NCBI GenBank assembly: GCA_017557435.1
Contig: JAFYYR010000012.1
Span: forward strand, 1-42,394
Reading direction: 5' to 3'
Source of the DNA: Pseudobutyrivibrio sp.
GTDB taxonomy: Bacteria; Bacillota; Clostridia; Lachnospirales; Lachnospiraceae
DNA: 42,394 bases
Below the pieces are notes generated by a model. The model was given only the letters and a program-made list of their open reading frames with translations, searched no databases and was not told the origin of the DNA. Positions within the stretch are counted from its first letter, which is position 1, and every line of letters begins with the position of its first letter. Positions 33,060-35,958 of the stretch are shown piece after piece. The position numbers and the translations under genes are program-made.

Positions 33060-34163
33060 ATGAAAAAAAGAGTTTTAGCAGGATTGTTCGCAACACTTAT
33101 GGCTGCTTCAATGGTAGCTTGTGGCGGATCAGACAGTGGAGCAGATGGTGGAGCAGCACCAGCAGATGGTGGTGAGGCTACAGAGGCTGACGGCGGAGAC
33201 GCTGCTGCTAGCGGAGAGAAGATTACAGTTGGTTTTGCACAGGTTGGACATGAGTCAGATTGGCGTACAGCTTCTACAAAATCAGTTCAGGATGCTTTCT
33301 CAGAGGCTAACGGATATGATCTTCAGTTTGTTGATTGTGATAACGATTCAAAGGCTCAGATTGATGCAGTTAGACAGTTCGTTCAGAACGACGTTGATTA
33401 CATCGTAATTGATCCTATCGTTTCAACAGGTTGGGATACAGTTCTTACAGAGTGCGAGGATGCTGGTATTCCTGTAATCGTAATCGATAGAACAATCGAA
33501 GACTCAACCAAGTATGTTTCTTGGGTAGGTTCAGAGTTCATGAACGAAGGTCTTGCATCTGGTGCATGGCTCAAGGCTTACGCTGAGGCAAAGGGTATTG
33601 ATGATCTTAACATTCTCGTTATCGAGGGTTCTAATGGTTCTTCAGCTCAGATCGGACGTACAGACGGATTTAAGAAGTACGCTGACGAAGAGGGATGGAC
33701 AATCCTTGATTCTCAGGATGGTAACTTTACACAGGAAGGTGGACAGCAGGTTATGGAGTCTTACTGCAAGTCTTATGCAGGTAAGTTCAACGTAGTTGTT
33801 TGCCAGAATGATAACGAAGCATTTGGTGCTATGGATGCTATGAAGGCAGCTGGTGTTTCTTATGGTATTGATGGCGATGTAATCCTTATCTCATTCGATG
33901 CTTGCAAGGCTGGTCTTGAGTATGTACAGTCAGGCGATATCAATGCAGACTTCATGTGCTACCCACTTCAGGGTTCATATTGTGCAGATATCATCAAGGC
34001 ACTTGAGAGTGGCGAGACAGTTGCTAAGGAAACATTCATGACAGAGCCATGGTACGTAGCAGAAGATATCCTTCCTTCAATTACATATACAAACAACGCT
34101 GGTGAAGAGGTTACAGAGGATCTTATCGTAGTAACTGATGCAGCATCACAGGCTTCATATTAA
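33060..34163 (+). CDS. ytfQ: Sugar ABC transporter substrate-binding lipoprotein (YtfQ-like)
   Basis: A 367-residue lipoprotein that captures sugar for the importer. The signal peptide ends at SMVAC (C21), followed by a low-complexity Gly/Ala/Asp linker (about 22-55) and a type I periplasmic-binding fold (VGFAQVGHESDWRTA, DVDYIVIDPIVSTGWDTVL, IEGSNGSSAQIGRTDG, LISFDACKAG). The closest named family is YtfQ, the galactofuranose-binding protein of E. coli, though ribose or other furanoses are possible. The start at 33060 is set by GGAAGGAG 8-16 bases upstream; the frame is open earlier without a site. The gene uses strongly biased codons, consistent with high expression, and is separated from the ATPase gene by 280 bases of structured sequence. 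Confidence 0.93.
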   Translation: MKKRVLAGLFATLMAASMVACGGSDSGADGGAAPADGGEATEADGGDAAASGEKITVGFAQVGHESDWRTASTKSVQDAFSEANGYDLQFVDCDNDSKAQIDAVRQFVQNDVDYIVIDPIVSTGWDTVLTECEDAGIPVIVIDRTIEDSTKYVSWVGSEFMNEGLASGAWLKAYAEAKGIDDLNILVIEGSNGSSAQIGRTDGFKKYADEEGWTILDSQDGNFTQEGGQQVMESYCKSYAGKFNVVVCQNDNEAFGAMDAMKAAGVSYGIDGDVILISFDACKAGLEYVQSGDINADFMCYPLQGSYCADIIKALESGETVAKETFMTEPWYVAEDILPSITYTNNAGEEVTEDLIVVTDAASQASY

Positions 34164-34170
34164 AAAAACG

Positions 34171-34226
34171 TATAGATATGTCTAAAAAGGGGAAGGGAAT
34201 TTCCTTCCCCCTTTGTTATAGATATG
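34171..34226 (+). repeat. G/C-rich hairpin flanked by a 10-base direct repeat
   Basis: AAAGGGG...AAGGGAA (34186-34199) pairs with TTCCTTCCCCCTTT (34201-34214), an imperfect strong hairpin just past the ytfQ stop, with only a weak T tract. It is flanked by TATAGATATG at 34171-34180 and 34217-34226. It could be a partial terminator or 3' stabiliser of the ytfQ message. Confidence 0.75.
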
Positions 34227-34252
34227 AGTCTATAGTTATTAGAAAAATAAAG

Positions 34253-34407
34253 CTAGTAGCATACAAGCCGTTGTTGATAAATACTTTACTTACCTGTAGT
34301 TCACAAGCTCTTAGATTGCTTAAGGGAATCGTTTTAGATGACCGAAGCAATACTAAGGCTTGTGAACGTAACAGGTATAAAAAGCTGAGGCTTGTATGCG
34401 TAACTAG
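34253..34407 (+). ncRNA. Nested duplicated stem element between ytfQ and ytfR (unknown family)
   Basis: Outer stem: CTAGTAGCATACAAGCC (34253-34269) with GGCTTGTATGC-g-TA-a-CTAG (34389-34407). Second stem: TACCTGTAGTTCACAAGC (34291-34308) with GCTTGTGAAC-g-TA-a-CAGGTA (34358-34377). Apical stems: CTTAG (34310-34314) with CTAAG (34353-34357) and ATTGCTT (34315-34321) with AAGCAAT (34345-34351), loop of 23 bases. Outer and second stems share the module GTAG-N3-ACAAGC / GCTTGT-N3-CGTAAC, where CAT/ATG in one is TTC/GAA in the other, so pairing is kept by paired changes. Both leave the same G and A extrahelical on the 3' strand. I do not recognise a known RNA family. A structured transcript, an attenuator setting importer stoichiometry, or a small mobile foldback are the alternatives. 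Confidence 0.7.
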
Positions 34408-34443
34408 CGTAGATATTAGAAATAAAGAAAGTGGAGAACGATT

Positions 34444-35958
34444 ATGGATGAAAATATTTTGATTACTATGCGGGACATATCCAAATCCTTTCCAGGTGTA
34501 AAAGCATTAGATCATGCACAGTTTACTCTTAGAAAGGGAGAGATACATGCGCTTATGGGAGAAAACGGTGCGGGCAAGTCTACACTTATCAAAGTGTTGA
34601 CTGGTGTTTATTCTCTCGACGCAGGTGAGATTCATGTAGCAGGAGTGGATGGGCCAGTAATTAACCACTCAACATTAGAGGCCCAGGAAAAAGGAATTGC
34701 TACAGTATACCAGGAAGTTAACCTTTGTCCTAACCTGACTGTGGCAGAAAACTTATTTATTGGCCGTGAGCCAAAGACACCTATTGGAACCATCGACTGG
34801 AGAAAAATGAACAAAGATGCTAAGGCCATTGTCGATGGATTGGAATTAAAAATTGACGTAACTATTGCACTTGAAAATTATTCTCTTGCAATACAGCAGA
34901 TGATAGCAATTGCAAGAGCTGTAGATATGGATTGTAAAGTTCTTATTCTTGATGAGCCTACATCATCACTTGATGATAACGAAGTAGAGAAGCTCTTCAA
35001 GGTAATGAGAGATCTTAAAGCAAAGGGAGTTGGAATAATATTTGTTACTCATTTCTTAGAGCAGGTTTATGAAGTGTGTGACACAATTACTGTTCTGAGA
35101 AATGGCGAGTTTGCAGGTGAGTATTCAGTAGAAGAAATGCCTCGTGTCAAGCTTGTGGCGGCAATGCTTGGCAAGGATTTCGACGATCTGGCCTCTATTA
35201 AAAAGGAAGGAGCCTCACATGTTTCGGATGATGTTGTTGTTGATGCTACTAATCTCAGCCACAAGGGAACAATTAAGCCATTTGATTTTCAAATTAAAAA
35301 AGGCGAGGTTGTGGGCGTTACTGGCCTTCTTGGGTCGGGCCGCTCAGAGATGGTGCGCTGCATCTATGGTGCAGATAAAGCTCAAACTGGCGAGTTAAAA
35401 ATCAACGGCAAGAAGCTCAATATTAGAGAGCCTCTTGATGCTATCAAAGCTGGCATGGGATATTTGCCAGATGATAGAAAAGCTGATGGATGTATTGGTG
35501 ATCTTTCAGTTAGGGAGAATATTATTCTTGCCCTTCAGGCGAAGAATGGTATGTTCAAAAAGATTCCAGCGTCAAAGCAAAATGAAATTGCAGATAAGTT
35601 CATAGATATGTTGCAGATTAAAACTGCATCAAGGGAGACTCCTATAAATCAGTTATCAGGTGGTAATCAACAAAAGGTTATCCTTGCAAGATGGTTATGC
35701 ACACATCCTGATTTCTTAATTCTTGATGAGCCAACACGAGGTATCGATATCGGTACTAAGACAGAATTCCAGAAGCTTGCTCTTAAGTTTGCGGAGGAAG
35801 ATGGAATGAGTATCGTATTTATTTCTTCAGAAATAGAGGAGATGCTTCGTACATGTACAAGAATGTACGTAATGCGTGATGGCGCACAAGTTGGAGAAAT
35901 ATCTGGCGAAATGACTCAGGAATCAGTCATGGCTGCCATAGCAGGAGGTGGAGAATAA
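34444..35958 (+). CDS. ytfR: Sugar ABC transporter ATPase with two nucleotide-binding domains (YtfR-like)
   Basis: A 504-residue ATPase of the RbsA/MglA/YtfR class that powers furanose or pentose uptake. The first domain (about 5-240) has Walker A GENGAGKSTL, a divergent signature YSLAIQQM and Walker B ILDEPTSSL. The second (about 255-500) has a weaker Walker A GLLGSGRSE, the proper signature LSGGNQQK and ILDEPTRGID. This asymmetry is normal in the family. GTGGAGAA lies before the ATG. The stop codon shares one base with the first permease gene. Expression is probably lower than ytfQ because of the hairpins in the preceding gap. Confidence 0.95.
   Translation: MDENILITMRDISKSFPGVKALDHAQFTLRKGEIHALMGENGAGKSTLIKVLTGVYSLDAGEIHVAGVDGPVINHSTLEAQEKGIATVYQEVNLCPNLTVAENLFIGREPKTPIGTIDWRKMNKDAKAIVDGLELKIDVTIALENYSLAIQQMIAIARAVDMDCKVLILDEPTSSLDDNEVEKLFKVMRDLKAKGVGIIFVTHFLEQVYEVCDTITVLRNGEFAGEYSVEEMPRVKLVAAMLGKDFDDLASIKKEGASHVSDDVVVDATNLSHKGTIKPFDFQIKKGEVVGVTGLLGSGRSEMVRCIYGADKAQTGELKINGKKLNIREPLDAIKAGMGYLPDDRKADGCIGDLSVRENIILALQAKNGMFKKIPASKQNEIADKFIDMLQIKTASRETPINQLSGGNQQKVILARWLCTHPDFLILDEPTRGIDIGTKTEFQKLALKFAEEDGMSIVFISSEIEEMLRTCTRMYVMRDGAQVGEISGEMTQESVMAAIAGGGE

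Follow-up and report, generated by a model that had tools for sequence, protein, structure and literature searches.

A dispersed REP/ERIC-like palindrome of Pseudobutyrivibrio, apparently nested as two copies between ytfQ-like and ytfR-like genes

Results

The gap between the ytfQ-like and ytfR-like genes

The window is the whole 42,394-nt stretch of Pseudobutyrivibrio sp. DNA that was analysed. It carries a ytfQ-like gene and a ytfR-like gene on the same strand, and the gap between them holds a nested foldback and a separate hairpin (Table 1). The closest full-length match of the ytfQ-like protein, among those listed, was that of P. xylanivorans MZ8 (96%), and the ytfR-like gene was 92-99% identical across 16 close relatives. 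Elsewhere in the window, we noted a lysine riboswitch (RF00168, 11025-11207, plus strand, 111.6 bits) and an S10-Clostridia ribosomal leader (RF03136, 42054-42139, plus strand, 92.2 bits).

Table 1. Features of the window in and around the ytfQ-ytfR gap
Feature	Position	Strand	Basis
ytfQ-like sugar-binding protein gene, upstream neighbour	33060..34163	+	ORF; relatives; name is the putative assignment of the initial annotation
Terminator-like hairpin directly 3' of the ytfQ-like gene, separate from the repeat	34189..34210	+	Terminator scan
Outer (putatively older, diverged) copy, left half, split by the inner copy	34253..34292	+	GTAGCATACAAGC arm
Outer stem arms, CTA-GTAG-CAT-ACAAGC and GCTTGT-ATG-CGTAAC-TAG	34253-34268; 34390-34407		Sequence letters
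GTAG of the outer copy, opposite CGTAAC 34399-34404	34256..34259	+	Sequence; pairing in the whole fold
Inner (putatively younger) repeat copy, one long 83-nt hairpin	34293..34375	+	CM R1 108.4 bits, R2 99.8 bits (both models built from sets including this copy)
Inner stem arms, CCT-GTAG-TTC-ACAAGC and GCTTGT-GAA-CGTAAC-AGG	34293-34308; 34358-34375		Sequence letters
GTAG of the inner copy, opposite CGTAAC 34367-34372	34296..34299	+	Internal loop, unpaired G and A
Inner-copy apical stem-loop carrying two opposed GA steps (GGGAATC-GTTTTA-GATGACC)	34324..34343	+	Alignment, fold, covariation
Outer copy, right half (AGGCTTGTATGCGTAACTAG)	34376..34407	+	L018 right arm match, right-arm pattern
ytfR-like sugar ABC ATPase gene, downstream neighbour	34444..35958	+	ORF; name is the putative assignment of the initial annotation

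The nested foldback of about 155 bases (34253-34407) had been described in an initial annotation of this DNA, and its coordinates and letters were correct. The fold of 34230-34430 was -74.2 kcal/mol, and 200 shuffles gave a mean of -39.7 (sd 3.9; z -8.9), with none as stable (0/200). The inner copy folded alone gave -42.7 kcal/mol. The paired changes that had been pointed out between the two stems (CAT/ATG and TTC/GAA, with pairing kept) are real. In addition, the right arm of another copy in the same genome (L018) matched window positions 34385-34417 at 91% by BLAST, and the right-arm pattern AGGMTTGWNNNYGTAAC is present at 34388-34404.

Copy number and taxonomic range

A BLAST search of the source genome with the region returned 17 further places (E <= 4e-5), of which 16 matched the inner hairpin and one the right arm of the outer copy. 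In the first alignment, built from 18 copies, a hairpin emerged with double changes at 19 of its 32 pairs. The covariance model (CM) derived from this alignment has 104 positions. CM searches gave 78 matches among the 150 candidates scored in the source genome and 106 matches in MZ8. The sets compared below comprise 77 copies of the source genome, the weakest match (28.3 bits) being excluded, and the 90 MZ8 copies that were fetched.

The repeat was present in 24 of 25 genomes of the genus and in none of the 16 genomes taken from elsewhere in the order, at no more than 96 candidates scored per genome. Together with the copy number, this bears out the dispersed foldback that the initial annotation had offered as one of its options. 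In a wider sample of the order (13 candidates per genome), 8 of 295 genomes were positive, all of them from Pseudobutyrivibrio, a genus of gut bacteria (0/287 outside the genus). A second CM found the repeat in 2 of 200 genomes of the family (19 candidates per genome), both again Pseudobutyrivibrio (0/198 outside the genus); with candidates limited in this way, the copy numbers are minimum values, and weak relatives beyond the genus may have gone undetected. One genome of the genus (G020) had no CM match and another (G007) had one, so the repeat looks dispensable, both genomes being less than 87% complete.

Carriage by phages or plasmids was considered and rejected. Phages and plasmids gave no BLAST match to the repeat, and among the 66 viral contigs that contain the right-arm pattern, one (L388, 2250 bp) has CM matches.

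The initial annotation had recognised no described element, and the comparison with Rfam 15 agrees, with no match at gathering scores in the repeat part of the window. When five other copies were compared with Rfam 15 at E <= 10, the only match touching one of them was a chance-level rliI (E 5) over the last 9 bases of L036. No description in the open-access literature searched was recognised as this repeat. The main text of a survey of 3161 candidate structured RNAs from human microbiomes (PMC8040213) does not contain 'butyrivibrio', and its supplementary tables could include the repeat.

The ytfQ-ytfR gap in relatives

A cis-regulatory RNA dedicated to the ytfQRT sugar transporter would be in keeping with a stable fold that shows co-changes and lies directly upstream of ytfR. 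The CM search of ytfQ regions took in 35 of the 80 loci from a ytfQ-like protein search. Besides the window, the repeat was matched in the gap of 4 of 16 close relatives, namely L082 (filed as Butyrivibrio fibrisolvens 16/4) and L087, L088 and L152 (three of the 15 filed as Pseudobutyrivibrio), and in 0 of 19 more distant records. In L089, the gap holds a right-end remnant of the repeat, as judged by eye. The initial annotation had suggested a device that sets the ratio of binding protein to ATPase, and had named a conserved position in these gaps as the mark of a cis-regulatory RNA; at four gaps in 16, the ratio device is not supported. Furthermore, the repeat lies beside many unrelated genes. 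Its distribution across many gene junctions speaks against a dedicated ytfQR riboregulator, and we consider the ytfQRT explanation extremely improbable.

A GC-rich hairpin directly 3' of ytfQ was visible by eye in 20 of 20 gaps inspected, four of Butyrivibrio included. In the window, this hairpin (34189-34210) is a more ordinary candidate than the repeat for a ytfQ/ytfR ratio device.

Architecture and covariation of the repeat

From the outside inwards, the repeat has a variable outer stem, an internal loop of GTAG opposite yGTAAC, a variable stem of 3-4 bp, a conserved CAAGC(U)CU/AGGCUUG stem, a further variable stem, a loop with opposed GA steps and an apical loop. The arrangement of GTAG opposite CGTAAC with an unpaired G and A, initially described for the two window stems, recurs across the family: among the 77 aligned copies of the source genome, GTAG occurs in 58 and CGTAAC or TGTAAC in 64.

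We compared the pairing of the 73 distinct copies with that of controls. Paired cells made up 95.4% of 2299 pair cells, compared with 69.6% after shuffling and at most 40.8% in slid structures; these pair counts lean to the model, as the CM served to fit alignments A2 and A3 and favours paired copies in detection. Double changes were found in 28 of the 32 pairs and in 560 cells (shuffled controls, 150; slid controls, 80 at most). Helix 4, the apical stem, was paired in 98.6% of cells, and its pairs covary.

The pair cells of the source genome comprised 2114 Watson-Crick, 80 G.U, 4 A.C and 101 other pairs. Given the excess of G.U over A.C, the plus strand is the folded strand. The corresponding counts in MZ8 were 1927, 66, 17 and 96, a weaker wobble asymmetry than in the source genome. 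The plus strand also had the more stable fold in 74 of 77 copies. Copies antisense to their genes favoured G.U over A.C as well (8 vs 1 in the source genome, 10 vs 3 in MZ8), which is not predicted by selection on the local mRNA alone. Judging from these counts, selection appears to maintain the fold, and the earlier suggestion of selection on a folded single strand is upheld.

Nesting of copies

A sister of the inner window copy lies at an unrelated locus (L002/L027; G000:C25:128087-128168) and is 96% identical to it, variable arms included; the match extends exactly over CCTGTAG...GTAACAGG. The L027 site of the source genome also consists of an outer and an inner copy, and in G002 it holds the outer copy alone (arms recognised by eye). 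The nested pair is present in the ytfQ-ytfR gap of MZ8 too. There, the outer left arm is GTAGCTATCAAGC where the window has GTAGCATACAAGC (the same place in MZ8 reads GTAGCTATCAAGCTTTTGG), indicating that the outer stem of the window pairs better than its ortholog. The simplest account is that the window holds a diverged older copy of the repeat with a younger copy inserted into its apical part. The duplicated module of the initial annotation stands as two copies of one module and falls as a local duplication, the two being nested family members. The covariation between the two window stems then comes from the difference between two members of the family.

Two other observations concern the form of single copies. 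The copies at two unrelated sites (L236 and L240) resemble each other in carrying about 70 nt of extra sequence, with inverted repeats of its own, in the apical part. Around 2551-2555 of the MZ8 locus L176, the right arm stands by itself; the copy is complete in the source genome (L044), and the MZ8 form is a deletion remnant.

Genomic context and orientation

Most copies lay between co-directional genes. The 77 copies of the source genome were classified as 53 sense, 14 antisense, 7 convergent, 2 divergent and 1 unclear (p 1.8e-6), and the 90 MZ8 copies as 61 sense, 18 antisense, 10 convergent and 1 divergent (p 1.3e-6), with a crude ORF caller (longest ORFs of at least 70 codons) and with flanks shared by adjacent copies. 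Two of the 90 MZ8 copies overlap long ORFs. For sense copies, the next gene started at a median of 14 nt (source genome) and 15 nt (MZ8) beyond the model end. The downstream proteins of 30 of the 53 sense copies were inspected by eye and had mixed functions, which offers no regulon logic. We take these downstream genes to include ilvD, pgk, aspS, polA, era, htpG, flagellar genes and sugar genes.

The 7 convergent copies had a median outer stem of 7 bp vs 4 bp in sense copies (stem not placed in 7 of 53 sense copies), and 4.1 of the following 9 bases were T vs 1.7; L207, L048 and L045 are examples. This is what would be expected if the repeats were multiplied bidirectional transcription terminators. 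However, no more than 7 of the 77 copies are convergent, and antisense copies had a median outer stem of 4 bp and 2.7 T. The window copy was absent from the output of the terminator scan, which disallows long irregular hairpins. We therefore regard terminators as quite an unlikely explanation of the family.

In MZ8, with the leading strand inferred from GC skew, 78 of 79 co-directional cases were on leading-strand genes. The orientation, with one lagging-strand case only, could thus follow replication instead of transcription. Of these 78 copies, 60 run along the leading strand, and so do 60 of the 61 sense copies. The mRNA of a leading-strand gene and the single-stranded DNA on the lagging-strand template are identical in sequence. 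The repeat might be a mainly selfish element: on the lagging-strand template its plus strand would fold, and an HUH/Y1-type or some other enzyme would copy it; its placement before genes would then reflect tolerance, not function. The 60 of 78 copies along the leading strand speak for such an element, as do the nested copies, the 96% identity of the young pair across unrelated sites and the G.U preference kept by antisense copies.

Persistence and turnover between species

For 61 of the 77 sites of the source genome, one of the 90 MZ8 element loci that were fetched was orthologous on both sides. Among the 16 remaining sites, L027 is empty in MZ8 and L243 is present in G013 at 99%. Orientation was kept in 55 of 58 orthologous pairs and scored as inverted in 3, of which L028/L169 is clear and two are doubtful; assignment is doubtful at the multi-copy sites L040/L168, L201/L281, L217/L272 and L220/L190, the pair of L242 has no aligned row, and two MZ8 sites have no match. 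In L028/L169, the element is inverted between perfect inverted repeats, a further point in favour of the selfish single-stranded DNA element.

Among the pair cells of orthologs, 171 had both bases changed and paired, 51 had one changed and paired, 52 had one changed and broken, and 20 had both changed and broken; 1518 were unchanged and 44 were gaps. At 19 of 58 orthologous sites, each species carries a different variant with pairing largely retained. In 17 of these 19, the copy of the source genome was closer to a paralog in its own genome (mean 0.83) than to its ortholog (mean 0.74). At the other 39 sites, the ortholog mean was 0.92 and the ortholog was closest in 35. In L024/L256 and L048/L280, the apical half alone differs. 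At 33 non-replaced sites, divergence was 4.8% inside the repeat vs 16.3% in the flanks and lower inside at 27 of 33, these sites having been selected for few double changes, which favours low core divergence. The low divergence of copies that stay in place counts against a mainly selfish element. The turnover is consistent with either ectopic conversion or repeated insertion into hairpins already present.

The L027 site was readable on both sides in 7 of the 11 relatives fetched and one-sided in four. A single copy was seen by eye in L305, L306 and L308, the site was empty in L307, L309 and L312 had other, GC-rich sequence, and L314 had yet another insert. One clean empty site was read (MZ8, L307); no target duplication was seen there, and the relatives suggest loss over insertion. 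Scattered copies with target duplications had been proposed as the sign of a mobile element; the scattering was found, and at this one site the duplication was not.

The GC-rich sequence at the same junction as the repeat (L309 1356-1486, L312 630-760) is structured, with 131 nt and -53.6 kcal/mol. It had a 71% match over 111 bases in the MZ8 locus L190 (1692-1802) and short matches in four more loci, and is perhaps another dispersed family.

Comparison with known systems

GTAG REPs, as presented by Di Nocera et al. (2013; PMC3733652), are high-copy intergenic palindromes with units of 20-40 bp that are possibly mobilised by RAYTs. The repeat resembles them as a high-copy intergenic palindrome with GTAG, compensatory stem variants and G-T pairs, and in its location between unidirectional and convergent ORFs (74 of 77 copies of the source genome, by the crude ORF caller). 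The tag that it shares with REPs hypothesised as RAYT-mobilised (PMC3733652) also favours the selfish element. Unlike GTAG REPs, the repeat spans about 83-105 nt, the young pair matching over 83 nt. Moreover, their tag is described as terminal and unpaired, whereas GTAG in the repeat is partly paired with CGTAAC in a longer stem, its G and T being paired in 72/73 and 73/73 distinct copies, with a further stem outside. The terms Firmicutes, Gram-positive, Butyrivibrio and Roseburia, and words beginning with Clostridi or Lachnospir, are absent from the main text of PMC3733652.

A Y1/RAYT partner of the repeat was sought and rejected. Y1_Tnp (PF01797) had no match in the source genome or G013 (coordinates of MZ8). 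Y1_Tnp matches were found at 18 places in 10 of 29 genus genomes, and the 10 of these 18 places that were fetched had no copy of the repeat at E <= 0.1. A parent element with the same arms was not apparent from exact arm patterns in the source genome either: 57 of 59 right arms and 57 of 61 left arms lay within known copies, and of the six outside CM matches (2 right, 4 left), two were outer arms of nested copies. With these results against it, we consider a mainly selfish single-stranded DNA element rather unlikely.

MITEs are short, non-coding elements with terminal inverted repeats that are dispersed and nested, and the repeat is like them in all these respects. At the one clean empty site read, where the relatives suggest loss, no target duplication was seen, and no parent was apparent from exact arm patterns in the source genome. 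An integron attC site was also considered; its end order (AAC...GTT) is the opposite of that of the repeat. With cis-regulatory RNA families, the repeat shares a covarying structure on one strand; it does not have one gene set, given the mixed downstream proteins (30 of 53) and the ytfR gap (4 of 16).

Compared by description, ERIC and similar palindromes of 100-170 bp (PMC2267715) are like the repeat in length, in forming a single long hairpin and in being intergenic. They come from another taxon, and the repeat has conserved internal loops, same-site variant swaps and nested copies. Yersinia ERIC is said in that source to regulate its neighbours as RNA hairpins. The repeat misses the size, unpaired-tag and RAYT features given for GTAG REPs and has no Rfam match; it would be a new family among REP/ERIC-type palindromes. 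Our best reading of the sequence data is that the window carries, one within the other, two copies of a dispersed imperfect palindrome, REP/ERIC-like, specific to Pseudobutyrivibrio and about 85-105 nt long.

Discussion

We favour an explanation that joins a nested genus-specific REP/ERIC-like repeat, a presumed intercistronic RNA hairpin and a presumed non-autonomous spread as DNA; taken as a whole, we judge it probable, with clear reservations. From its sequence and placement, the repeat probably acts as an intercistronic RNA hairpin. The copies would be transcribed together with the operon, and the hairpins between cistrons may tune the stability, processing or read-through of their neighbours. 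The copies may have spread as non-autonomous DNA via an agent that was not found. They would now mostly stay in place, with variants of the family often swapped at the same site.

A bolder possibility, which we put forward tentatively and think improbable, is a hairpin family that targets hairpins. Copies would insert into loops, those of older copies and perhaps also those of terminators, and variants would be replaced in register at the same junction by an agent other than a known REP transposase. If this is true, the genus holds interchangeable, structure-conserved RNA joints between operon genes.

The repeat adds a large, well-structured dispersed palindrome family to a group of bacteria without mention in the main text of the GTAG-REP survey (PMC3733652). 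It also provides a case for studying REP-like spread without RAYT. Finally, its copies (at least 77) and the 19 of 58 orthologous sites with swapped variants may serve as natural replicates for the function of intercistronic hairpins in Firmicutes.
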